Made by a program: the position numbers and the translations under genes. This document shows positions 34,873 to 48,849 of a DNA stretch of 64,000 nt, piece after piece. A model generated the notes under the pieces. The model ran no database searches, had not been told where the DNA came from, and saw only the letters and a program-made list of their open reading frames with translations. Source of the stretch: an uncultured Oscillospiraceae bacterium. GTDB taxonomy: Bacteria; Bacillota; Clostridia; Oscillospirales; Oscillospiraceae. The stretch spans positions 41,533-105,532 of the forward strand of contig CATABD010000001.1 in the NCBI GenBank assembly GCA_949494735.1. The letters run 5' to 3'. How positions within the stretch are numbered: position 1 is the first letter of the stretch; each line of letters opens with the position of its first letter.

Positions 34873-36477
34873 TTATTCCGCCGCCTCGGCGGAACCACGG
34901 CTGGACTTGCGCTCCATCTTGGGCAGCTCAAAGAGGTAATTGCCCTGGGCATCCAGCTTGGGCTGGGGGAAGTGGCAGGCCAGGAAGTGGCCCGGCTCAA
35001 TCTCTTGCAGAGGGGGCGGCACCCGCTTGCACTTGTCGCAGGCCATATAACAACGGGTATGGAACTTGCAGCCGGAGGGTGGCCTGATGGGGCTGGGGAT
35101 ATTGCCCTCCAGCAGAATGCGCTCCTTCTCCAGGCTCTCCGGGTCGGTGGTGGGGATGGAGGAGAGCAGCGCCACCGTGTAGGGGTGTCTGGGATCCTTG
35201 AAGATGGTCTCGGCATCGGCCAGCTCTACAATGTTGCCCAGGTACATCACGCAGATCCGATCGGAGATATAACGCACCACCGACAGGTCATGGGAGATGA
35301 ACATATAGGTCAGGTTCTGCTTCTCCTTCAGCTCCTGGAGCAGGTTGATGATCTGGGACTGGATGGACACGTCCAGCGCGGAGACACACTCATCGCACAC
35401 GATGAACTTGGGCTTCACCACCAGCGCCCGGGCGATGGCCACGCGCTGGCGCTGGCCGCCGGAAAACTGGTGGGGATAGCGGTTGACCATATAGTCCTGG
35501 AGGCCGCACTCGTCCATGGTGGACAGGATATGCTCCTCCATCTGCTTGGAGCCCTTGCGGTAGAAATTATGGGTGAGCAGGCCCTCCTCAATGATCTGGC
35601 CGATGGTCATCCGGGGGTTTAGGCTGGAATAGGGGTCCTGGAAGATGATCTGCAAATCCTTGCGCAGCAGGCGCATCTCGCTGTACTGCAGGCGGGCCAG
35701 GTCAATGCCGCTGTCCCGCATGGCCTCGTATTTGGCAAACTCCGGGTTAGCCGCGTTCCGGGCGCGCAGGTCGTCCAGCTCCCTCTGGCAGGCGGCGGTG
35801 CTTCGGTCATAGACGGCGATCTGGCTGTCCAGCTCGTCCAGCTTGGCCTTCAGCCCGGCGGCTTTTCCGCTGTCTCCCTTGCCCACACTCAGCTCGTACT
35901 CCGCGTTGATATCCGTCCGCTTTTCCAGCAGCTTGTTGCGCTTCACATTCTCATAGTAGACCTTTTCCATCAGCTCCCGGCCCTTGCCGCCCTCGTCCTT
36001 GGCGAAAAAGCCGCCCAGGATGGTGACGATGTGCATCAGGCAGGTCTGCTCGTCGCACAGCGCCAGGTTGCGCTCCTGGAGCAGGTAGAAGTCCGCGTTC
36101 TCCTCACCGCCCGCGTCCATCACCTTTTTGCTTAGCTCGGCGGCCTTCTCACTGGCCTTTTCCAGCCTGGCCTTGTAGCGGTCCAGGTGGTGCAGGGTGT
36201 CGATCACGTACTTGGGGGTGGTGGAGTCCAGGGTGGCGCCGTAGTACATGGTGGTGCCGGCGGTCTGGGGGTAGAGCTGGAGGAGCACGCGGCCCAGGGT
36301 GGACTTGCCGCAGCCGCTCTCGCCCACCACGCCCACGGTCTCGCCCTCGTAGATGTCAATGGAGATATCCTCGTTGGCCCGGACGTACAGCTGCTCCTTC
36401 TGGAAGATGGAACTCTTAGCCACGGGGAAATATTTTTTCAGATTACTGATGGACAGTAATTTTTTGGTGCTCTTCAC
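34873..36477 (-). CDS. Peptide-type ABC transporter ATPase (OppF/DppF family) with a long helical insertion
   Basis: 534 residues versus about 320-335 for the family. Walker A is GESGCGKST (52-60). The Q-loop KDLQIIFQDPYSSLNPR begins at residue 273 where about residue 100 is expected, so some 175 residues (about 84-258) are inserted. The insert is charged and helical, with coiled-coil heptads (RYKARLEKASEKAAELSKKV; GLKAKLDELDSQIAVYDRST). Signature FSGGQRQRVAIARAL, Walker B FIVCDECVSALD and the carboxyl oligopeptide motif with four Cys (CKFHTRCYMACDKC) are intact, so the ATPase should work. GTG start at 36477 overlaps the previous gene by 35 bases. Confidence 0.92.
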   Translation of the reverse strand: MKSTKKLLSISNLKKYFPVAKSSIFQKEQLYVRANEDISIDIYEGETVGVVGESGCGKSTLGRVLLQLYPQTAGTTMYYGATLDSTTPKYVIDTLHHLDRYKARLEKASEKAAELSKKVMDAGGEENADFYLLQERNLALCDEQTCLMHIVTILGGFFAKDEGGKGRELMEKVYYENVKRNKLLEKRTDINAEYELSVGKGDSGKAAGLKAKLDELDSQIAVYDRSTAACQRELDDLRARNAANPEFAKYEAMRDSGIDLARLQYSEMRLLRKDLQIIFQDPYSSLNPRMTIGQIIEEGLLTHNFYRKGSKQMEEHILSTMDECGLQDYMVNRYPHQFSGGQRQRVAIARALVVKPKFIVCDECVSALDVSIQSQIINLLQELKEKQNLTYMFISHDLSVVRYISDRICVMYLGNIVELADAETIFKDPRHPYTVALLSSIPTTDPESLEKERILLEGNIPSPIRPPSGCKFHTRCYMACDKCKRVPPPLQEIEPGHFLACHFPQPKLDAQGNYLFELPKMERKSSRGSAEAAE

Positions 36478-37462
36478 TGCGCCTCACCTCCTTTTCGGGA
36501 TAGAAGCAGCGGATGAGCTGGCCTCCGCCCACATCTTCCAGGCCTGGCTCCTCCTCAATACACTTCTGCGTGCAGTATTTGCACCGCGGGGCGAACTTAC
36601 ACCCCTTGGGCAGATCCAGCGGGTGGGGCACAGCCCCGGGGATGGGCTCGATCCGGGTGTGGATGGCATCCAGCCGGGGGATGGAGAACATCAGCCCCTC
36701 GGTGTAGGGGTGGCTCATGGCGCAGTCGGCAAAGATAAGCCGGGCGCTGGCCTTTTCCACCACCTGCCCACAGTACATAACGGCCACATCGTCCGCCATC
36801 TCGTTGATGACGCCCAGGTCATGTGTGATAAAGATGATGGAGGTGCCGTTCTCCTCCTGGAGCTCATTCATCAGGCGGAGGATCTGGGCCTGGATGGTCA
36901 CGTCCAGGGCGGTGGTGGGCTCGTCGGCAATGAGGATCTTGGGCCGGCAGGCCAGAGCCATGGCGATCATCACCCGCTGGCGCATTCCGCCGGACAGCTG
37001 GTGGGGGTACTGGTTGAGCACCGCCTCGGGGTTGGGGATCTGCACCGCGCGGAGCATCTCCAGGCTCTTTTCCGCCGCCTGCTTCTTGTTCATGCCCTGG
37101 TGGATCATAAAGGGCTCGGACAGCTGGCGCTTGACGGTGAACACCGGGTTCAGGCTGGTCATGGGCTCCTGGAAGATGACGGAAATGGCGTTGCCCCGGA
37201 TGTGGTACATATCGTCCATGGGCAGCTTGGTCAGGTCCCTGCCCTCAAAGAGGATCTCCCCCGAGTCGATATAGCCGTTGGCGTCCAGCAGGCGCAGGAT
37301 GCTCATGGCGGACACGGACTTGCCCGAGCCGGACTCGCCCACAATGCCGATGGTCTTGCCCGGCTCCAGGCTGTAGGACACGTCGTTCACTGCCTTGACG
37401 GTGCCGTTCCTGGTCCTGAAATAGGTGTGGAGGTTCTTGACCTCAAGGAGCATATCCGCCAT
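36443..37462 (-). CDS. Peptide-type ABC transporter ATPase (OppD/DppD family)
   Basis: 339 residues, normal length. Walker A GESGSGKSVSAMSIL near residue 42, Q-loop VIFQEPMTSLNPVF, signature LSGGMRQRVMIAMALACRPK and Walker B ILIADEPTTALDV. The carboxyl oligo_HPY extension has the Cys-rich CKFAPRCKYCTQKC segment, which may hold an iron-sulphur cluster as in some Dpp ATPases. The ATG overlaps the TAA of the permease gene by one base. It pairs with the atypical OppF-like ATPase next door. Confidence 0.94.
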   Translation of the reverse strand: MADMLLEVKNLHTYFRTRNGTVKAVNDVSYSLEPGKTIGIVGESGSGKSVSAMSILRLLDANGYIDSGEILFEGRDLTKLPMDDMYHIRGNAISVIFQEPMTSLNPVFTVKRQLSEPFMIHQGMNKKQAAEKSLEMLRAVQIPNPEAVLNQYPHQLSGGMRQRVMIAMALACRPKILIADEPTTALDVTIQAQILRLMNELQEENGTSIIFITHDLGVINEMADDVAVMYCGQVVEKASARLIFADCAMSHPYTEGLMFSIPRLDAIHTRIEPIPGAVPHPLDLPKGCKFAPRCKYCTQKCIEEEPGLEDVGGGQLIRCFYPEKEVRRSEEHQKITVHQ

Positions 37463-39405
37463 TATTTCTCCACCTCCGATTTCGGGTCAAGTACATCGCG
37501 CAGGGTGTCGCCGATGGTGTTGATGCAGATGACGACGATGGACAGGAACAGGGCCGGGAACAGCCAGCGCCACCAATAGGACTCGATGACCAGCGCGCTG
37601 CGGGAGCCGTTGAGCATATTGCCCCAGGTGGGCCGGGGCAGCTGCACGCCGAAGCCCAGGTAGGACAGCTGGGACTCGGTGAGCATGCAGGTGGCGAAAT
37701 CCAGGGTGACCGTCACCAAAATGACGGACACAATGTTGGGCAGGATGTGCCAGAAGGCGATGCGCCCCTCCTTTACGCCCATGGACCGGGCGGCGGTGAC
37801 GAATTCCTTCTCGCGCTCGGCCAGGATCTGGCCGCGGACCAGCCGCGCCAGCCCCGCCCAGCTCAAGACGCCCAGAATAATCATGATGATGAAGATCCGG
37901 GTGTCCTCATGGATGTCGGTGGACTGGAAGATGGCCGACAGGCACAAAGCGAAGGGCAGGAAGGGGATGGCGCCCACGATCTCGCACAGGCGCATGAGCA
38001 GCATATCCACGATGCCGCCGAAATAGCCGGAGATGCAGCCCACAATGACGCCGATGACGGTGGAGATGATGACGGCCACCGCGCCGATGGTCATGGTCAT
38101 CTTGCCGCCGTTTACAATGCGGTTGAACACGTCGCGGCCCATCTCATCGGTGCCCATGATATAGCCCTTCAGCCCCCAGCTGTCCACGAATTTCCCGTCC
38201 TTGAAGGCGTAGTTCTGGAAGCCGCTGGTGATGACGGTGTCCGCCGCCCCCTCCTGCTTCAGGCTGTCGGGTACATTGCACTGGTTGCGGTAGTTCTGGC
38301 CCCAGGCGTATACCCGCCCCTTGTCGGTGAGTAGGGAGAAGTGCCGGGTGCCGCCGCTGACGGCGATGGCGTCCTCATCGTCCATGAGCTGGGGCATGGG
38401 GTCCTTCATGCCGGACATGATAATCTCGCCGTCGTCGGTGACCAGGGCCAGGGCGCCGCCGGTGGCGGCAATGTCCACCAGCTTGCGCTCCCCCAGGTAC
38501 TCAAACAGGTCCATGGTCACGTTTTTGCCGTTCTCGTCCTGGACGGTGACGATATTGTACTTGGTGCTCTTGCCGTAGACGAAATCGCCGAACTCATCGA
38601 TGCCGTAGATGCCGTCGTTAGTAAACACGATCTTCTCCAGCTTGCCCACCTGCTTGCCGTGCTTGATGACGGAGGACAGGTTGGTGGCGGCCAGGCCGTC
38701 GTTGCCCCAGGCGTAGACGGTGCCGTCCTCCATGAGGATGGCGGTGACCTGGTTGCCGCAGATGAGCTGGCGCACGGCGGAGGCGTCGATGGTGTTATCC
38801 CCCATCAGCTCCTCCGGCTGTTTGCGGGCGGACATAATCATGGAGCCGTCATGGCCGTACTGGCCGTTGTCCATCTCGCCCCAGCAGTACACGTGGCCGT
38901 CCTCCGAGATGGCCACGCAATGGTCGGAGCCGGCGGCCACATGGATAATTTTGCTGTTCTTCACCGCCTCGGGGATGTTCATCACGTCCCGGGCGGGGTC
39001 GCCGGAGGTATTGAAATAGTACCCCCACATGGATACCTGTCCCTCGGTGTCCACGCCGATGGTGAAGGTGCCCCGGGAGGAAATGTCCAGCGCGCCGTCC
39101 TTCATGCCCTCGGGCAGCTTCATCAGGCTCTGGGTGGGGGCCATGTTGGTGTGCAGCATCTCGCTGCCCGTCTCGGTCAGGTCCACCGGCGCGATGGCCG
39201 AGCCGATGAACACGAACAGGAACATCCCCACCAGCACGATCACCGAGCCGGTGGCCAGCGGCTTGCGGAAAAACCGCTTCACCGCCTGCTTGGAGGGGCT
39301 GTCGTAGCGGTCGTCCTTCACCTCGCCGTAGGAACCCATAAACATGCGCTTCATCCAGCGCAGGGGGGTGCCCCCCTTCTTCGCGGAACCATTCTTTTCA
39401 CTCAT
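37462..39405 (-). CDS. Peptide-type ABC permease (OppC/DppC family) carrying an RCC1-like repeat domain
   Basis: 647 residues, about twice the family length. The amino OppC-N part (about 40-75) contains the first membrane helix. From about residue 95 to 415 there is a repeat region with RCC1-type motifs: AAGSDHCVAISEDGHVYCWG (157-176), CGNQVTAILMEDGTVYAWG (216-234), ATGGALALVTDDGEIIMSG (314-332), GGTRHFSLLTDKGRVYAWG (351-369), and weaker units near 110-128, 258-279 and 393-411, about seven in all. Then the normal permease resumes at GTDEMGRDVFNRIVNGG with five helices and the EAA loop (EFVTAARSMGVKEGRIAFWH). By topology the propeller lies outside the cell membrane. No frameshift or internal start is seen. 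Confidence 0.93.
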   Translation of the reverse strand: MSEKNGSAKKGGTPLRWMKRMFMGSYGEVKDDRYDSPSKQAVKRFFRKPLATGSVIVLVGMFLFVFIGSAIAPVDLTETGSEMLHTNMAPTQSLMKLPEGMKDGALDISSRGTFTIGVDTEGQVSMWGYYFNTSGDPARDVMNIPEAVKNSKIIHVAAGSDHCVAISEDGHVYCWGEMDNGQYGHDGSMIMSARKQPEELMGDNTIDASAVRQLICGNQVTAILMEDGTVYAWGNDGLAATNLSSVIKHGKQVGKLEKIVFTNDGIYGIDEFGDFVYGKSTKYNIVTVQDENGKNVTMDLFEYLGERKLVDIAATGGALALVTDDGEIIMSGMKDPMPQLMDDEDAIAVSGGTRHFSLLTDKGRVYAWGQNYRNQCNVPDSLKQEGAADTVITSGFQNYAFKDGKFVDSWGLKGYIMGTDEMGRDVFNRIVNGGKMTMTIGAVAVIISTVIGVIVGCISGYFGGIVDMLLMRLCEIVGAIPFLPFALCLSAIFQSTDIHEDTRIFIIMIILGVLSWAGLARLVRGQILAEREKEFVTAARSMGVKEGRIAFWHILPNIVSVILVTVTLDFATCMLTESQLSYLGFGVQLPRPTWGNMLNGSRSALVIESYWWRWLFPALFLSIVVICINTIGDTLRDVLDPKSEVEK

Positions 39406-39419
39406 ATTGTCCCGCCCCC

Positions 39420-40448
39420 TTACTTGTTTACGCGCACACGCGGGTCGGCCAGGCCATAGGCCAGGTCCACCACCAGGTTGCCCACAAGCCCCAGGATCAC
39501 GTAGAACATCTGGAGCAGCAGCACAACCTCGAAATCCTTTTTGCTCAGGCTCTCGATATAAATGCGGCCCACGCCGTTCAGGCCGAAAATATTCTCAATT
39601 ACGATGGAACCGCTGAAAATCCCCGTAAACCAGCCGATTACCAGCGTGATAATGGGGATCAGCGCGTTGCGGAAGGCGTGGCTGTACACCACCACCCGCT
39701 CCCGCAGGCCCTTGGCCCGGGCGGTGCGGATGCAGTCCAGGCTCAGCGCCTCGCTCATGGCGGCGCGGGTGTACCGCGTCATGCCGCCCAGGGAGGCAAA
39801 GGTCATGGCGATCAGGGGCAGGGCCATATAATACAGCCGGTCCTGCAGCTCCTGTAGTCCCGTATAGTTGGATCCCGGCGTCTTCATGCCCGACACCGGG
39901 AACCACCCCAGCTTGATGGCGAACACCCAGATGAACACAATGGCGATGATGAAGCTGGGGATGCTGTAGCCCACGATGGTTGCCACCTGTACGCCGGTGT
40001 CCAACCGGCTGCCCCGCTTGGTGGCGCACAGGATGCCCAGGGGTATGGTGATGCCCAAACCCAGTATGGTGGCGAAAATGTTGATGAACACGGTGTTCTG
40101 CATGGGCCGGACCAGCACATCGGTGACGGGCCGGTTATACTCGTAGCTGTAGCCGAAATTGCCCTGCAAAATGCCGTTATACTTGCCGTTGATCGGCCCC
40201 AGGCCGATCCAGCCCAGGTAGCGCACAAATACGTTCTGGTCGGTGCCCAGCTCCCGGCGCAGCTGTTCGATCTTCGCCGCGTACAGCTGCGGGGCGTTGG
40301 GGTTGTTTTTCAAGCTCTGCTTATAGGTGTCCGCCTCCGCCACAGCCCGGTCAAAGGGGATGATGGAGTACACTAAGAACATGATAAAGGAGAGGATCAT
40401 CAGCACGACCAGCATATACGCCAAACGCTTTATTATATATTTTCCCAT
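39420..40448 (-). CDS. Peptide-type ABC permease (OppB/DppB family)
   Basis: 342 residues from ATG 40448 (MGKYIIKRLAYMLVVLMILS). Six helices; an external loop after helix 1 is enlarged (about residues 30-100) with FVRYLGWIGLGPINGKYNGI and NFGYSYEYNRPVTDVL. The EAA loop is YTRAAMSEALSLDCIRTARA followed by KGLRERVVVYSHAFRNALIP. GGGAAG before the start is a modest ribosome binding site. It follows the receptor gene after a 13-bp hairpin and pairs with the RCC1-bearing permease. Confidence 0.93.
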   Translation of the reverse strand: MGKYIIKRLAYMLVVLMILSFIMFLVYSIIPFDRAVAEADTYKQSLKNNPNAPQLYAAKIEQLRRELGTDQNVFVRYLGWIGLGPINGKYNGILQGNFGYSYEYNRPVTDVLVRPMQNTVFINIFATILGLGITIPLGILCATKRGSRLDTGVQVATIVGYSIPSFIIAIVFIWVFAIKLGWFPVSGMKTPGSNYTGLQELQDRLYYMALPLIAMTFASLGGMTRYTRAAMSEALSLDCIRTARAKGLRERVVVYSHAFRNALIPIITLVIGWFTGIFSGSIVIENIFGLNGVGRIYIESLSKKDFEVVLLLQMFYVILGLVGNLVVDLAYGLADPRVRVNK

Positions 40449-40483
40449 ATCGCACTTCCCTTCTTGCTGCGGCGCGGGAACGG

Positions 40484-40522
40484 GGATGGGGCAGCCGAAC
40501 CCTGCGGCTGGCTGCCCCATCC
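40484..40522 (-). terminator. Intercistronic hairpin between the receptor and permease genes
   Basis: Thirteen-base perfect stem (40484-40496 with 40510-40522) and 13-base loop, without a T-run on the minus strand. It likely sets receptor:permease expression or protects the receptor mRNA. Confidence 0.6.
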
Positions 40523-40562
40523 ATTGTCTTGCCTATTCCCTGCTAAGCAAATTTTTAGCGGC

Positions 40563-42707
40563 TTAGAAGCCCTTCACGTTGGCGTAAAGGATGGCGCGGT
40601 GCTGGCCGAAGAACGGAGAGGTGTGGAAGTTCTCGATCTTGGCGTTGTACACGTCATAGTAGTAGTTGGAGTACAGGGGGATGTCGGGCATGAGCTCGTT
40701 CCAGCGCTCAATATAGCCCATCCACCAGTGGTTGTACTCGTCCTCGGTGGTGGCGTTGAAGATCATGGCCATGGACAGGTAGTCCATACCCAGCTTGTCG
40801 CCGGAAGCCTCCACGGCCTCCTCATAGGTCAGCTTCTCCGCCTTCAGGTCATAGGGGAACGCCTTGTCGTACTCATCAAACACCTTGTTGGCGGAGTAGG
40901 GGAAGTACATGGGATCCAGGGACCAGTTGTAGGAGTAGTCATACACGGCGCTGGGCCAGCCGGTGGCCAGGTTGTACATGCCGTAGGTGGGAGTGCCCTC
41001 GTAGCCGTAGGACGCCTCGCGGTAGATGTTGCCCTGGAGCAGGGTGAAGTCGCCGCGGGTGGAGCGGATGACCATGCCCGCCTCGGTCACCTGGCTGCCG
41101 TTGGCCAGGGAGGTGGTCAGCATGTCGGTGACGGTGTTCTCGTCGGTGCCGAACCAGTTGATGGCCAGGGGCATATAGTACTCGCCGTTGATCTCCACGG
41201 TCTTGTAGGTCACGCCGTCGGTGTTGGCCACGGAGGCGTAGTTCTTGTTGATGTCGGCGGTGCCGTCGCCGGAGGCGGCGTTGGCCTCCTCGGCGGTGAG
41301 CTTCTTGTAGCGCACAGCGTCCACGCCGGTCTGGCCGGGCTCATAGGGCTCGCCCTTGGAGTTATAGATCCAGCCGCCCTCCTCCAGCACCTTCACGGCG
41401 GTGTCGGGGGAGTAGGAGTAGTCGGTCAGCTCGATCTCGTCCTGCACGCCCTGCCACATGGAGAAATCGGGGCTGTAGGGGCCGTCCACCACCACGCCGT
41501 AGCCGCCGGTGAAGGTCTGGCAGAACTCGTTGCGGTTGAGCAGGTAGGCCACGGCCTGGCGGACTTCCTTAAACATGGTGGGGCCAAAGTCGCAGTCGAA
41601 CTGGATCTTGCCGTAGCCGGCCCGCTGGTAGTGGGTCTCCACGAATTTCTCGCCGTCCACCACGGCCAGGGCGGCCTTGGTGTCGTCGCCGCCGGTGATG
41701 CTGGACAGGACGTCCATCTCGCCGCCGGTCAGCTGGGCAATCTGGGTCTCGGAGATGATGCGGCCGTAGACAACGGTCTCAATGGAGGGCTTCTGGCCCT
41801 CGAAGTTGCCCTTAAACTCGGGGTTGATGGTCAAGACCGCCTGACTGGTGCCCTCGTCCCACTCGGAGACCACATAGGCGCCGCTGTAGGGGATGTCCAG
41901 GTTGTAGCGGTTGCCCAGAATCTCGGCGGCCTTGACGTAGTCGTCGCCGTTCTTCTCATAGTAGTTGTCGGTGAGGTAGCAGCCGTTGCCGTCGTCCATG
42001 ATATCCACGTCCTTGCCCAGCCACTGCTCCATGACGTAGGGCTGCACAGCGGCGTTGGTGTAGGCAAAGTAAGAGGGATAGTACTCGCTGGACACGGTCA
42101 GGGAGAAGGTGTAGTCGTCCAGCAGGCGCACACCGGAGAACTCCTTGGTGCCGGTCTCGGAGCCGGGGCCGGTGTAGGCGTTGAAGTCCTCAAAGCCCAC
42201 CAGGGCCTGGCCATTCATGCCGGAGTGGTTGGTGCCCTGGGCCACGGGGGTGGAGAAGCTCAGAACGTAGGCCAGGTAGTTCTTGGCGGTGACGGGGCTG
42301 CCGTCGCTGAACTTCAGGTCGTCATAAATCTCAATGGTGTAGGTGCAGGTGCTGTCGTCGTTCTCGGTCTCCTCATGGCTTTTGACCACGGTCTGGCTCC
42401 ACTGGTAGGCGCCGCCCTGGTCGGACTCCATGGTGGACAGGCCGCTGGTCAGGAACCAGACTCCCTGGTCGGACGCGCCCACGGAGCTGGAGCCCCAGCC
42501 GGGATAACGGAAATCGCCGGACAGCTCGGTGACGTCGCCCAGGATCACCTTGTTCTCAAAGACCTCCTGAGACCCAGATGGAGCCTCCGAGGGGGCCGTG
42601 CTGTTGTCGGCGGGGGGATTGCTCTCGCCGGTTTCCTTGGGACCGCAGCCGGCCAGAAGGCCAAGACACATCACGGCCGCCAGCAGAAGCGCAAGAAACT
42701 TCTTCAT
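40563..42707 (-). CDS. Extracellular solute-binding lipoprotein, family 5 (peptide type)
   Basis: 714 residues, longer than the usual 500-600. A lipoprotein signal ends LLAGC (Cys21), then a Ser/Pro/Thr linker to about residue 45. SBP_bac_5 features: TYTIEIYDDLKFSDGSPVTA, KNYLAYVLS, FKEVRQAVAYLLNRNEFCQT. Several extra aromatic-rich loops (YGYEGTPTYGMYNLATGWPS; NWSLDPMYFPYSANKVFDEY) account for the length. The ligand cannot be told; a peptide or another large solute is possible. First gene of the operon, AAGGAGG before ATG 42707. Confidence 0.92.
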   Translation of the reverse strand: MKKFLALLLAAVMCLGLLAGCGPKETGESNPPADNSTAPSEAPSGSQEVFENKVILGDVTELSGDFRYPGWGSSSVGASDQGVWFLTSGLSTMESDQGGAYQWSQTVVKSHEETENDDSTCTYTIEIYDDLKFSDGSPVTAKNYLAYVLSFSTPVAQGTNHSGMNGQALVGFEDFNAYTGPGSETGTKEFSGVRLLDDYTFSLTVSSEYYPSYFAYTNAAVQPYVMEQWLGKDVDIMDDGNGCYLTDNYYEKNGDDYVKAAEILGNRYNLDIPYSGAYVVSEWDEGTSQAVLTINPEFKGNFEGQKPSIETVVYGRIISETQIAQLTGGEMDVLSSITGGDDTKAALAVVDGEKFVETHYQRAGYGKIQFDCDFGPTMFKEVRQAVAYLLNRNEFCQTFTGGYGVVVDGPYSPDFSMWQGVQDEIELTDYSYSPDTAVKVLEEGGWIYNSKGEPYEPGQTGVDAVRYKKLTAEEANAASGDGTADINKNYASVANTDGVTYKTVEINGEYYMPLAINWFGTDENTVTDMLTTSLANGSQVTEAGMVIRSTRGDFTLLQGNIYREASYGYEGTPTYGMYNLATGWPSAVYDYSYNWSLDPMYFPYSANKVFDEYDKAFPYDLKAEKLTYEEAVEASGDKLGMDYLSMAMIFNATTEDEYNHWWMGYIERWNELMPDIPLYSNYYYDVYNAKIENFHTSPFFGQHRAILYANVKGF

Positions 42708-42860
42708 ATTTACTCTTCCTCCTTGAAATATTTATCCATAACCGCCCTCCGGCCTTCCCTGCTGGAAAGGACTGCGGCGGCTATCGACCGTAAACCAGGC
42801 CCCGACGCGGGGCGGGCGGGGCGCTTTTGCACTTTGCTCGAATAAACCCCGGCTATCTGG

Positions 42861-42951
42861 AAAAAGGGAGCTCCGCTTCTGATGGGAATAGTGAAGCGTG
42901 CTCCCCTTTTGGGGCAGCCAAAAGGGGGCGCAAGGGCCGGCCCTTGCGCCC
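42861..42951 (-). promoter_or_regulatory. Leader hairpins upstream of the receptor gene, possible attenuator
   Basis: On the minus strand an imperfect stem (about 42894-42910 pairing with 42861-42878) ends in CTTTTT, like an intrinsic terminator. Just upstream of it is a 26-base perfect palindrome (42926-42951, GGGCGCAAGGGCC followed by its complement). With the promoter at 43015-43043 this lies inside a 300-base leader. It could be regulated attenuation, or a terminator protecting the operon from blaR1-type read-through. No T-box sequence was found. Confidence 0.45.
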
Positions 42952-43014
42952 GACCGATTTTGCGTTGGACCCAGGGCCGGAGAACCACGAAACCCCCGGT
43001 TGAACTTACCGATT

Positions 43015-43043
43015 ATTTTAGTATAATCCGCGCAACTTTTCAA
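43015..43043 (-). promoter_or_regulatory. Candidate promoter of the Opp-type operon
   Basis: Minus strand TTGAAA (43038-43043), 17-base spacer, TAAAAT (43015-43020). It lies in a locally AT-rich stretch of the 634-base gap 42708-43341, which otherwise holds the leader hairpins and, at 43227-43256, a GC-rich stem-loop after the blaR1-like gene. Confidence 0.5.
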
Positions 43044-43341
43044 TGAGAAGCCTGCATTTTTTCTTTTTTCTGTAAAATCGCTAAAAAGACACGCTGTTTT
43101 TTCGGCTCCAATTAGTGAATTTGTTTGTTTTCTTCCACAGCCTTCCAATCTTTTTGGGGCTGAGCGCCCGCCCGGCGCATACATTCGTTTCTCTCGGGCG
43201 GTCTTTTGTTTCGGGCGGGACATGGGAGGGCCGCCGGAGCCATTCTCCGGCGGTCCTGACCCGCGAAAAGCGCCCTGGGCTGTCCGTGTCTGAAAGTGTG
43301 AGAATTTTAAATTCATTTTCCCCGGCGGCCCGTCCGGTTAT

Positions 43342-46300
43342 TCAATAGGAGGCGTCCAGCTCCCACTCCTCCTTCCCGATCTGGAAGCCGCCGCCGGTGA
43401 AGTCCAGCCTTACCCTGATGTAGCGCAGCTCATGGAGGTCCGCGCCGGTGAGCTCCATGCTCATCCAGCAAAACACGTTTCCGTCCTCGACGCTGTAGCG
43501 GGCGTGTTCCCCCACGCTGACGGCCTCGACCTCCCCCTTCCTGATCACCATCGGCCCATACGTGCCCGGGCCCTCCAGATAGAACCGGGTCCCCTCCTCG
43601 GTGCATTTGAACTGGCCCGCCACGCCCTCCCTGAGCCCGGACAGGTCGTACTCCTCCAGCGTCTGGGCGTCGAAGGCATGCAGCTCCTGGGCGGGCTCCC
43701 CGGCAAAGCTCAGGTAGTCGAATACGCACACGATCTCGTCCCTGCCGTCGCCGTTCAGGTCCAGCACCTTCACATAGGGCTGGTCCTGGGAGCGCCAATT
43801 GGCGAAAAAGTCCGCCGTCCGGTCCTGGTAGCGCAGCCGCGCCGACCGCAGGCAGCCGCTCCCCGCCTCCCCCATGTCCATTATCTCCGGCTCGACGGCG
43901 TACCACCGCGCCTCCATGGCCGTCTGGTAATCTTTCAGGTTTTCCAGCAGGGATTTGCCCGGGTCGCGGGTGAAGCCCTCCTCGGGGAAGGCGTCCAGCC
44001 ACCACAGGCTGTCGTACAGCCGCCCCTCCTTTTCAAAGGCGCCCAGCAGATCCTGGTCGGTGTTGAGCAGCTGGACGCTGTTTTCCAGCAGGCTGTTCAC
44101 CTTCTCCATGAAGTCGGCGATGGCCTCCGGGTCAAAGTTCTGGTGGAGCATGGGCTGGAAGTTTATGTCGAACTCCACCCGGCCCTCCCGTACCGTCATC
44201 TCCTCCCCGGCGCGGGACAGGGTGAACAGCTCAAAGGTATAGGAGCACACGCCCTGGTACATGGTGGGGTGGTAGCGCAGCAGGCAGTCCTCCCCGTCCA
44301 CCGTGCACAGAAACAGGGCGTTCCAGCCCGCGTGGGCGTAGTAGCCCTCCTCGGAGAAGAGCAGCTTCTCCCCCTCCCAGATCTCCACCCGGCGGCCCAC
44401 CGGCGTGCCGCCCGCCACGATGTCGCACATCTGGACCCGCTCGGCCACGCCGTCCCCGTCCAAGTTGGTGGCACGGGCCTCGCCGTTGGCGTGGTAAAGG
44501 CCTTCCGCGTTTTCATAGCGCTCGACGGAACTCAGCCCCGCCCCTTGCAGGGCGTCCAGCAGGTCGTTGCGGAAGCCCACCGACCCGAACTCGGCCTGGG
44601 TCAGAAAGCGCGTCATCGTTCTGTCCTCTTCGCCGGTGACAGCCACGTAGTTGAAGCCGTTTGTAAAGTTCATCCAGCCCTCGTCGTCCAGGGTCATGCC
44701 GCCGGCCAGCAGGTTTTGGGCAAACTCCGGCACGGTGGTGTGGTACTCGAAGGCCACCTTCCACAGCTCCGCCACCACGTCCTCCCCATCGGCCTGCACT
44801 GTGTAAAGGAAGGGGCCTTCCATGCTCTTGATACGCACCCGGTCGAAGGGCACCGCCTTGGCCAGCAGGACCGGCTCCCACGCCCCTGTCTCATCGTTGT
44901 AGCTCTCGCCCCAGCTGGTGAGCACGCCCCCCGGCACGTCGGCCTGGAACTGGGCGGCCACATAGGCCTTGGCGGCGTTCAGCACGTCCGCCGGGACGGC
45001 GAAGCTGGAAACCGGGTTGTTTCCCGTGTACTGGAAGGCGATTTCCACCACCGGGGTCTTGTGGTTGTTATACCACTCCTCCGCCGCGGTCAGCAGCCGG
45101 GCGGCGATGCGGGCCGCGCGGATGGCCTCCTCGTCGGAGATCGTCTCGGGATAGAGCTGTAACGGGGTGTCCAAGCTGGCACGAGAGGACATGCCTTCCA
45201 CGGGAACCATCTCCGTGACCTGCGCGCCGTGTATTCCGTACAGCTCCACAGTAAATATCCAAAAGATCTCAGGAGGGCCGCTGAACCGCGCGTCCACTCT
45301 GGTGCGCAGGTCCACCGTCCCGCTGTCCGCCCAGTACGCCTCCATGATAACGCCCTCGGGCGCGCCCTCAAAGGGATAGGACATCGTAAGGGTTTTGGCG
45401 GGGGCGCCTGACGGCTGCCAATAGGTCCCCTCTCTCAGCGTCAGGCCGTCCACCTCGCCCTCAATGACCACAAGATCGTTCTCATCCAGGGAAAAGCGCA
45501 GATCGTCCGTCCGGCGGGAGAACCGCTCCCCGTCCTTCACGTCCACGTACATGAATTTCGCGGACTTCTCCGCCTGGAAGACCAAATTGCCGTCCTCAAC
45601 CGTGAAATAGTAACGCTGTATTCCGGCGCTGCCCTCCAGCCCCTCGTCGGCCAGGCAGACCACGCCGTCCTCCTGGGTCCAGGTCCCCATGCCGATGTAG
45701 CTGCTCAAAAGTCCGGCGTAGTAGGAAAACGTGCCGTCCTGGTTCAGGGTCACCGCGAAGTCCCCGCCGAAGCCGCCCGCGTCCCGGATATACGTCATCC
45801 GGCTCACGCCGTAGGGCCAAAGCAGCGCGTCCACCTCTTCCTCCGGCTCGGCCTGTCCGAAGGCGCACGCGCAGGCCAGCGCCGTGGCCAGCACCACGGC
45901 CACCGCCGCCCACAGCCACCGCCTGGGGGCCTGGGCGATGCGGGTGATGCGCTCCTTCAGGCTCCTCTTGTCCCCCGCCATGGTGGTGGTGCACCGGAAC
46001 AGGTCGCCCGGGCCGGGCTTGGCGGTGACCAAGGCCAACAGGGTGTTCCCGTAGGCGGCCCGTTCGCCGTCGCCCAGCCGCCGGAGCGCCCCCTCGTCGC
46101 AGGCCAGCTCGCCGTCCCTCCGGCTCAGCCCCACCGCCAGCCACACCAGCGGGTTCCACCAGTGGACGGCCAGGGCGGCGCACCGCAGGAGGCTCCAGAT
46201 GTGGTCGCCCTGGCGGAAGTGGGTGTACTCGTGGGCCAGCACATGGCGCAGCATGTCCGGGTCCGCCGCCGTCTCGGGGGCGACGTACACCGCCGGGCGG

Positions 46301-46869
46301 ACAATGCCGAACAGGCACGGGGAGGGCAGTCCCCCTGCCTCATACACCGCCAGCGGGCAGTCCGCCCCCTCCAGCGGGACGCGCCCCTTCCGCAGCCGCG
46401 CATAAAACCGCAGGTTGGACGCCAACAGCACCAGCGCCGCCAGCCCGGTCCCCGCCAGCCACGCCCGGCCCAGCCAGGGGGCCAGTGCGCTCAAATCAGG
46501 GGCGGCTGGGGGCTCCGGCGCATCCGGCGCCGCAGGAGAGCCGGGGAGGGTTGGCACACTTCCCGGCTTCACGTCCGTCACAGGCAGGCCGGTTATCCCC
46601 GCCGCCGGGGGCTCAGGCAGACTGGGGGCGGTCATCGCCGGGGGCGGAGCAACCGCGTTCCATTCGGTGCGCGCCTCCGTCAGCGCCCACGTCCCGGCGA
46701 TGGGGGATTCAAACAGCTGCACCGGCACCAGCAGCCGCAGCAGCACCACCGCCCACAGGGCGTAGCGCATACGGGCGCTGATGCGCCTGCCCAGCGCGGC
46801 GCGCAGGGCCAATACCACTAAAATAAGGAATACGGAGGTAAAAACCCACTCCAGCAGCGTCCGCGTCAT
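43342..46869 (-). CDS. BlaR1-like M56 membrane protease with a very large non-penicillin ectodomain
   Basis: 1175 residues. The amino 330 are a BlaR1/MecR1 M56 unit: membrane helices near 8-25, 36-52 and 137-153, zinc motif HEYTH (213-217), ELACDE (254-259), then a fourth helix (about 313-333, WLWAAVAVVLATALACACAF). Family sensors then have a 250-residue penicillin-binding domain; here about 840 residues follow with no SxxK/SxN pattern that I can see. Two calcium/FG-GAP-like loops occur: NLDGDGVAERVQMCD and DLNGDGRDEIVCVFD. The role is presumably to sense an extracellular signal and cleave the BlaI-type repressor. Start overlaps the repressor stop (ATGA). Confidence 0.88.
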   Translation of the reverse strand: MTRTLLEWVFTSVFLILVVLALRAALGRRISARMRYALWAVVLLRLLVPVQLFESPIAGTWALTEARTEWNAVAPPPAMTAPSLPEPPAAGITGLPVTDVKPGSVPTLPGSPAAPDAPEPPAAPDLSALAPWLGRAWLAGTGLAALVLLASNLRFYARLRKGRVPLEGADCPLAVYEAGGLPSPCLFGIVRPAVYVAPETAADPDMLRHVLAHEYTHFRQGDHIWSLLRCAALAVHWWNPLVWLAVGLSRRDGELACDEGALRRLGDGERAAYGNTLLALVTAKPGPGDLFRCTTTMAGDKRSLKERITRIAQAPRRWLWAAVAVVLATALACACAFGQAEPEEEVDALLWPYGVSRMTYIRDAGGFGGDFAVTLNQDGTFSYYAGLLSSYIGMGTWTQEDGVVCLADEGLEGSAGIQRYYFTVEDGNLVFQAEKSAKFMYVDVKDGERFSRRTDDLRFSLDENDLVVIEGEVDGLTLREGTYWQPSGAPAKTLTMSYPFEGAPEGVIMEAYWADSGTVDLRTRVDARFSGPPEIFWIFTVELYGIHGAQVTEMVPVEGMSSRASLDTPLQLYPETISDEEAIRAARIAARLLTAAEEWYNNHKTPVVEIAFQYTGNNPVSSFAVPADVLNAAKAYVAAQFQADVPGGVLTSWGESYNDETGAWEPVLLAKAVPFDRVRIKSMEGPFLYTVQADGEDVVAELWKVAFEYHTTVPEFAQNLLAGGMTLDDEGWMNFTNGFNYVAVTGEEDRTMTRFLTQAEFGSVGFRNDLLDALQGAGLSSVERYENAEGLYHANGEARATNLDGDGVAERVQMCDIVAGGTPVGRRVEIWEGEKLLFSEEGYYAHAGWNALFLCTVDGEDCLLRYHPTMYQGVCSYTFELFTLSRAGEEMTVREGRVEFDINFQPMLHQNFDPEAIADFMEKVNSLLENSVQLLNTDQDLLGAFEKEGRLYDSLWWLDAFPEEGFTRDPGKSLLENLKDYQTAMEARWYAVEPEIMDMGEAGSGCLRSARLRYQDRTADFFANWRSQDQPYVKVLDLNGDGRDEIVCVFDYLSFAGEPAQELHAFDAQTLEEYDLSGLREGVAGQFKCTEEGTRFYLEGPGTYGPMVIRKGEVEAVSVGEHARYSVEDGNVFCWMSMELTGADLHELRYIRVRLDFTGGGFQIGKEEWELDASY

Positions 46870-47267
46870 GCCTTTCCACCCCCTTCAATCCGGTCCAGGA
46901 TGGCGCGCAGCTCCGCCACCTCATCGCCGGACAGCTCCTGGCGCCTGGCCATGGCGCTCATCATCAATCCCACGCTGCCCTGGTACACCCGGTCTAAAAA
47001 GCTGTGGGTCTCGGCGGTGACGGCCTGTTCCCGCTCCACCGCCGGGGTATACAGCTTGCCCCGCGCGCCCTGCTCCGCCCGGACCAGCCCCTTTTCCTCC
47101 ATCCGCCGCAGGGTGGTGATGGTGGTGCTCTTGGCCCACCCCACCTGTCCCCCCAGCGCCGCCACCAGCTGCATCACCGTGCGGGGGCTGTCCTCCCACA
47201 GGCAGCTGAGCACGCTCCACTCGCTGGCGGTGAGCTTGACGCCGCCCATATCCTTTTTGGCCTCCAT
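46866..47267 (-). CDS. BlaI/MecI-family transcriptional repressor
   Basis: 133 residues. Winged helix at about 10-80: LTASEWSVLSCLWEDSPRTV, WAKSTTITTLRRMEEKGLVR. The helical dimer domain follows; the usual cleavage region lies near residue 100 and is short. It should bind the two TACnTTGTn-type palindromes in its own promoter and be inactivated by the protease encoded next. Good GGGAGG site before ATG 47267. No beta-lactamase gene is linked in the window, so the regulated output is unknown. Confidence 0.92.
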   Translation of the reverse strand: MEAKKDMGGVKLTASEWSVLSCLWEDSPRTVMQLVAALGGQVGWAKSTTITTLRRMEEKGLVRAEQGARGKLYTPAVEREQAVTAETHSFLDRVYQGSVGLMMSAMARRQELSGDEVAELRAILDRIEGGGKA

Positions 47268-47287
47268 ATCCGCTTCCTCCCGTTTGG

Positions 47288-47333
47288 TTTACGTTGTAGC
47301 CCTATCATAGCACAGAAGGTTTACATTGTCAAC
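47288..47333 (-). promoter_or_regulatory. Promoter of the BlaI/BlaR1 operon with two operators
   Basis: Minus strand TTGACA (47327-47332), 17-base spacer, TATGAT (47304-47309). Similar palindromic words TTTACATTGTCAA and TTTACGTTGTAG (plus strand, 47320-47332 and 47288-47299) lie over the -35 box and just downstream of the -10. This is the arrangement of autoregulated BlaI operators (TACA-N-TGTA type). Confidence 0.75.
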
Positions 47334-48530: not shown

Positions 48531-48617
48531 TGGTGCGCGAGGCGGGAGTCGAACCCGCACGCCCTTGCGAGCACTGGCACCTGAAGCCAGCGAGTCTACC
48601 AATTCCACCACTCGCGC
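48531..48617 (-). tRNA. tRNA-Leu, anticodon CAG
   Basis: 87 bases including encoded CCA. Acceptor GCGCGAG (48611-48617) pairs with CTCGCGC; anticodon arm CTGGC-TTCAGGT-GCCAG gives CAG; the long variable arm typical of leucine tRNAs is present; the T-arm reads GCGGG-TTCGACT-CCCGC. Own promoter (48649-48677) and terminator (48492-48528). Confidence 0.97.
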
Positions 48618-48763: not shown

Positions 48764-48849
48764 GCGGATGTGCTGGAACTGGTAGACTGGCTAGCTTGAG
48801 GTGCTAGTGGCCCACGGCCGTACGGGTTCGAGTCCCGTCATCCGCACCA
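48764..48849 (+). tRNA. tRNA-Leu, anticodon GAG
   Basis: 86 bases including encoded CCA. Acceptor GCGGATG pairs with CATCCGC (48839-48845); anticodon arm CTAGC-TTGAGGT-GCTAG gives GAG; long variable arm; T-arm ACGGG-TTCGAGT-CCCGT. Immediately followed by an inverted-repeat structure at 48855-48915. Confidence 0.97.

Follow-up and report, generated by a model that had tools for sequence, protein, structure and literature searches.

A BlaR1-type M56 protease carrying a modular ectodomain in place of the penicillin sensor in an uncultured Oscillospiraceae bacterium

The window, a 64,000-nucleotide stretch of DNA from an uncultured Oscillospiraceae bacterium, carries on its reverse strand a blaI-type repressor gene that overlaps a blaR1-like gene by ATGA. 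The open reading frame at 43342-46869(-) was confirmed to encode a blaR1-like protein of 1175 aa (P0001; the repressor is P0002). Features of the locus are given by window coordinates.

47319..47330, minus strand: operator box 1, GACAATGTAAAC, overlapping the -35 element (TTGACA, 47327-47332)
47287..47298, minus strand: operator box 2, TACAACGTAAAC, just downstream of the -10 element (TATGAT, 47304-47309)
46866..47267, minus strand: blaI-type repressor, 133 aa, Penicillinase_R (PF03965)
43342..46869, minus strand: blaR1-like gene, 1175 aa, M56 protease plus mosaic ectodomain
45922..46869, minus strand: M56 core, residues 1-316, TM1-3 and gluzincin domain (Pfam match 5-310; hydrophobicity)
46219..46233, minus strand: HEYTH zinc motif, residues 213-217 (alignment, motif search)
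45967..46023, minus strand: predicted autocleavage loop, residues 283-301 (site inferred by alignment)
45847..45921, minus strand: TM4, residues 317-341, approximately (hydropathy)
45490..45852, minus strand: module A, residues 340-460, at best weakly NlpE/lipocalin-like
45184..45489, minus strand: module B, residues 461-562 as tabulated here (about 456-570), beta-rich (profile searches, model)
44515..45177, minus strand: module C, residues 565-785, alpha/beta (profile searches, model)
43915..44514, minus strand: module D, residues 786-985, beta meander and helices, NLDGDG loop at 802-807 (profiles, model)
43345..43914, minus strand: module E, residues 986-1175, DLNGDG loop at 1037-1042 (profiles, model, motif search)
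34873..42707, minus strand: downstream oligopeptide ABC transporter (opp) operon (SBP_bac_5, permeases, two ATPases)

The N-terminal part of P0001 matched Peptidase_M56 (PF05569) at residues 5-310 with 143.1 bits against a cut-off of 31 (Pfam, E 1.3e-41), and the HExxH motif and downstream Glu zinc ligand of that family are present: H213, H217 and E254 align with H201, H205 and E242 of Staphylococcus aureus BlaR1. The HEYTH residues, E214 among them, together with E254, C257 and D258, were unchanged in 75/75 relatives. P0002 scored 105 bits against the Penicillinase_R cut-off of 22.6 (Pfam) and matched MecI (1sd6, E 3.2e-11), in keeping with a winged helix and dimer domain. The locus thus resembles the S. 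aureus BlaR1/BlaI and MecR1/MecI systems (PDB 8exp/8exs; PMC9834060) in its M56 gluzincin core, four TM helices and autocleavage loop, in the equivalents of the alpha9 Arg and Asp246 (R307 and D258), and in the paired winged-helix repressor and autoregulated operon. A sequence-only reading of this DNA had described the M56 core and BlaI partner as intact, which was borne out, the protease and repressor residues being kept. Up to the ligand step, the window receptor is of BlaR1 type and a member of M56.

In S. aureus, BlaR1 cleaves itself at S283/F284 and BlaI at N101/F102, and the P1' Phe of BlaI is almost invariant (PMC9834060). In the alignments these sites correspond to T296/M297 of P0001 and A105/M106 of P0002, so that in contrast to S. 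aureus P1' is Met, not Phe, at both predicted cut sites. Met occupied both predicted P1' positions in 47 single-pair loci, most of which share one ancestry and therefore count as few events. The remaining BlaI proteins of the set have Leu or Phe at P1', with a less certain loop alignment, and one other pair of the source genome (C36) combines a Met in the loop with a Leu in BlaI. The match between loop and repressor suggests a co-evolved specificity, as judged from the alignments, and the predicted specificity of the protease would have changed in one clade. Given the matching P1' residues, P0001 may cleave its cognate BlaI.

BlaR1 has been studied almost only as the staphylococcal penicillin sensor. 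In P0001 the part fused after TM4 (residues ∼336-1175) comprises 840 residues, compared with about 254 (residues 332-585) for the penicillin sensor of S. aureus BlaR1 (PMC9834060), in agreement with the threefold length noted in the sequence-only reading. No transpeptidase or beta-lactamase domain was matched in P0001 by Pfam, and no Pfam or NCBIfam domain exceeded its cut-off across the 840 residues. The NCBIfam model blaR1_generic had its best match over the protease alone, at 88.6 bits where its cut-off is 400. Motif search found zero SxxK or K[ST]G motifs in the whole 1175-residue protein; these penicillin-binding motifs had indeed been reported as missing. Structure prediction of the ectodomain had been proposed in the same reading, together with a transpeptidase fold as the counter-evidence to look for; the PDB matches listed for the ectodomain models included no fold of that kind. 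With Pfam, NCBIfam, motif and fold searches all negative, a class-D-like penicillin-binding sensor was rejected, and the view that this is not a penicillin sensor of the known type is supported. Since a search for the defining sensor domain did not find it, we place the window receptor outside the beta-lactam-sensor BlaR1 family; an 840-residue mosaic ectodomain stands where S. aureus has the class-D-like sensor. The Mycobacterium tuberculosis BlaR1 homologue is likewise an M56 protease without a penicillin-binding sensor, but it lacks any equivalent sensor domain, whereas that of the window receptor is very large (PMC9834060).

The ectodomain had also been read as carrying two loops, DxDGDG and DxNGDG, like those of calcium-binding FG-GAP repeats. 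The second loop stands as DLNGDG (D1037, residues 1037-1042, module E); the first reads NLDGDG (N802, residues 802-807, module D) and so departs from the pattern. In relatives this loop reads DL[DN]xDG or similar, across 47 copies of module D it stays at a conserved position and mostly keeps a Dx[DN]x[DN]G-type sequence, and a single D.[DN]G[DN]G motif arises by chance in about 0.6% of shuffled ectodomains. The FG-GAP assignment itself was not upheld: the Pfam similarity was sub-threshold (E 0.15, 12.4 bits against 22.1), and although several of the best PDB matches of modules D+E were propellers, their TM-scores were <0.2 and their E-values >1e-3, leaving an FG-GAP/integrin propeller unsupported. 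The viral library was uninformative on this point. In the open literature (subscription papers being mostly outside the coverage) no paper on FG-GAP with BlaR1 was found.

Searches with pieces of the ectodomain, followed by iterated profiles, divided it into modules whose edges were set by us and are approximate. The locus set came from a tblastn-confirmed scan and consists of 80 loci, mostly from Oscillospiraceae MAGs; an alignment of all modules was dropped, MAFFT having put module B in the wrong place. The profiles detected 50 copies of D, 31 of E, 20 of C, 10 of B and 3 of A. The mosaic comprises at least five modules, which are reordered among Oscillospiraceae relatives: the M56 cores are 69-82% identical, yet the architectures behind them are ACDE, BCCD, CD, CCD, BCDE, BBCDE, BDDE, ADE, CDE, DE and D. 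Module D is also found in M56-free proteins, some with lipoprotein-like N-termini, and its distribution is patchy (13/201 family genomes, absent from both sampled congeners). Modules D+E were modelled with a pLDDT of 91 and a pTM of 0.79 from 46 aligned sequences, as an antiparallel beta meander, helices and a second beta domain. The model gave no PDB match at E<=1e-3 and TM-scores <0.2, although global TM-scores computed on multi-module models underestimate how similar single domains are, which limits any statement of 'no known fold'; the module D profile gave short, weak PDB matches only. Modules A-C were modelled at a pLDDT of 72 with NlpE as the best, weak PDB match (E 7e-3), so that an NlpE-like module A, in a low-confidence part of the model, may serve as a lead.

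Tracing module D into other genomes led to operons in which the receptor is split. The arrangement was found in 10 family genomes (G087, G022, G039, G129, G183, G066, G074, G019, G050 and G144; loci L135, L142-L144, L146 and L149-L155), of which G066 is of the same genus as the window genome. Its layout is blaI, an M56 core of ∼300 aa ending after helix alpha8, and then one to four tail genes; G074 and G019 depart from this order, with one tail gene placed after blaI and before the core. The cores have no TM4 and end before the autocleavage loop, and each tail gene opens with loop-alpha9-TM, mostly ending in a lipobox-like motif (LVAC, LVGC). The split point is thus the loop that S. aureus BlaR1 cleaves in itself. 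An ATGA overlap joins the core to the first tail at all three junctions checked, and the recurrence of tandem copies speaks against a frameshift artefact. Within an operon the tails are 50-93% identical, while the ectodomains mostly have no significant blastp similarity (exceptions are the G129 set and one G022 pair). Since tails are kept and ectodomains change, the ectodomains behave as interchangeable sensor cassettes, and the split operons are the strongest evidence that the ectodomain with TM4 forms a separable unit. They represent a natural separation of core and sensor at the autocleavage loop, and so bear on transmembrane signalling and on the role of autocleavage. A literature search found no paper on split BlaR1 among openly available work, subscription papers mostly falling outside it.

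In front of blaI, boxes GACAATGTAAAC and TACAACGTAAAC are spaced 32 bp apart around a TTGACA-17-TATGAT promoter, a pair that is also present upstream of blaI in most relatives. These predicted dyad operators at blaI's own promoter are what is looked for in a PF03965 repressor. Under a stricter pattern the pair was detected 38 times, spanning 46 bp in 31 cases and 47 bp in 7. We then carried out the genome-wide operator search that the sequence-only reading had suggested. An exact pair search in 20 whole genomes gave one match in 18, two in one and zero in one; the two-match genome carries two blaI loci of the window type (L014 and L040). A relaxed search (<=3 mismatches, 19 genomes) brought in nothing beyond opposite-strand hits to sites already matched and one operator belonging to a further blaI locus (L026). 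With the reversed control, the exact search returned zero matches and the relaxed search two. Single boxes had 10 exact matches genome-wide beyond the own promoter: nine were without a partner box and apparently intragenic by context, and one lay in another blaI's promoter. Across 19 genomes, and with as many as three mismatches, the tandem operator was seen to precede no genes other than blaI, which by this criterion indicates that the circuit probably regulates only itself, although the source genome is 85% complete and a target missed in it is possible. The earlier statement that the target genes are unknown was narrowed to this extent.

A comparable case has been described in Clostridium thermocellum, where DAP-seq showed that a promoter must carry two inverted-repeat pairs to be a BlaI target and that the BlaI_1845 regulon is its own operon only (PMC8457756). 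The BlaI_1845/BlaI_0696 systems resemble the window system in the two inverted-repeat pairs per promoter and the very small regulon, one system being limited to its own operon, and two blaR1 genes occur in one operon. They differ in having GTCTAT/GACTAT-type boxes, against KACANYGTARAC in the window system, and in being read by their authors as a beta-lactam response.

Our preferred reading, with a probability of about 0.72, is that P0001 acts as a membrane anti-repressor of BlaR1 type in which a mosaic ectodomain has taken the place of the sensor half and senses an extracellular signal other than a beta-lactam. The observations behind it are the domain composition, the conserved active site, an operator confined to blaI genes, the shuffled modules, the P1' Met match and the split homologues; we infer ligand sensing, the cleavage sites and the direction of signalling as follows. 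At rest, BlaI would occupy both boxes, one covering the -35 and the other immediately following the -10, and so repress the blaI-blaR1 promoter. An extracellular ligand or surface state would be sensed by the modular ectodomain, and the signal would pass through TM4 and helix alpha9 so that the autocleavage loop (T296/M297) exits the zinc site. The freed protease would cut BlaI near A105/M106, a site placed by alignment, and the promoter would fire to produce more receptor. A conserved output gene was found nowhere, which is odd for a sensor and counts against this scheme.

Alternatively, the receptor itself might be the output, the BlaI circuit setting the amount of a surface protein such as an adhesin or binding protein, with the protease as a feedback device. 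The confinement of the operator to blaI genes fits this, as do the occurrence of module D in M56-free proteins and the large, fast-changing ectodomain; against it, the active site of the protease is invariant and so is the geometry of the loop, which suggests a signal-gated protease, and we consider the explanation unlikely. A cell-wall or beta-lactam stress sensor, reading peptidoglycan fragments or antibiotic damage indirectly, would keep the biology that of an antibiotic response. There are precedents: a peptidoglycan fragment is reported to trigger beta-lactam resistance in Bacillus licheniformis (PMC3305447), and the M. tuberculosis homologue serves a beta-lactam response without an equivalent sensor domain (PMC9834060). 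Here, however, a transpeptidase fold was not found, the operator lies only at blaI genes in the 19 genomes and not at beta-lactamase or PBP genes (the predicted regulon holds no beta-lactamase or PBP2a gene, unlike S. aureus), and fast module reshuffling does not suggest a single fixed ligand. This leaves the stress sensor with a rather low likelihood.

The receptor might also serve the adjoining transporter, the ectodomain sensing peptides and read-through raising opp expression. A family-5 SBP (opp) gene lies downstream of blaR1 on the same strand in eight loci, representing two distinct opp families, with the opp frame opening 394-637 nt past blaR1. The 0.6-kb gap, however, is devoid of BlaI boxes and holds promoter-like sites together with a structured leader that is conserved; in four other relatives feoAB-like genes (by sequence inspection) occupy the place of opp, and others have nothing conserved of such kind there; and opp operons are common, so that the adjacency may be chance. 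We therefore regard this role as quite improbable, and the opp link to BlaI as a lead. The leader itself (42708-43341, minus strand) has conserved promoter-like sites, GC-rich hairpins, 84% mean column identity to L050 across the gap, a folding z-score of -2.1 and no Rfam match. Within the transporter operon, the OppC-type permease gene (37462-39405, minus strand) encodes an RCC1 beta-propeller between OppC_N and the permease domain, an unusual fusion.

A degenerate or broken, functionless fusion, for which the patchy occurrence of module D might speak, is hardly credible given the open frame of 1175 codons, the confident D+E model and the 26-71% identity of module D across 46 other copies.

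The source genome (3.18 Mb) contains six M56 genes and six blaI genes, all paired, and none of the five other M56 proteins has a recognisable transpeptidase domain. The other blaI promoters carry different dyads, e.g., AGTCTAT..ATAGACT and AAACTATTG..CAATAGTTT, which suggests that the parallel pathways are insulated from each other. In the family, M56 matches were present in 86/121 sampled genomes, with 1-12 each. We tentatively propose, at less than even odds, that in Oscillospiraceae the BlaR1 architecture is a general plug-in platform, in which loop, alpha9 and TM4 form a docking plug that accepts any ectodomain. In split operons one M56 core would serve up to four sensor subunits, giving several inputs per repressor, and each pathway would have its own operator and regulate only itself, the receptor being both sensor and output. 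The results point to exchangeable ectodomains through which many BlaR1-like proteins in a large gut family would sense something other than penicillin, and annotation of these genes as beta-lactam sensors from the M56 domain alone is unsafe.

Several minor observations were made. The ectodomain mosaic and its place among six such systems in the source genome had both been overlooked in the sequence-only reading. The five further pairs of the source genome (C36, C33, C62 and C18; L008-L011) have operators unlike that of the window pair where recognisable, none being evident for C18. At L029 and L071, blaI is followed by two or three tandem blaR1-like genes. Two divergent tRNA-Leu genes (CAG, 48531-48617, minus strand; GAG, 48764-48849, plus strand) lie 1.3-1.6 kb from blaI, and given the patchy distribution the pair is a possible insertion hot spot.
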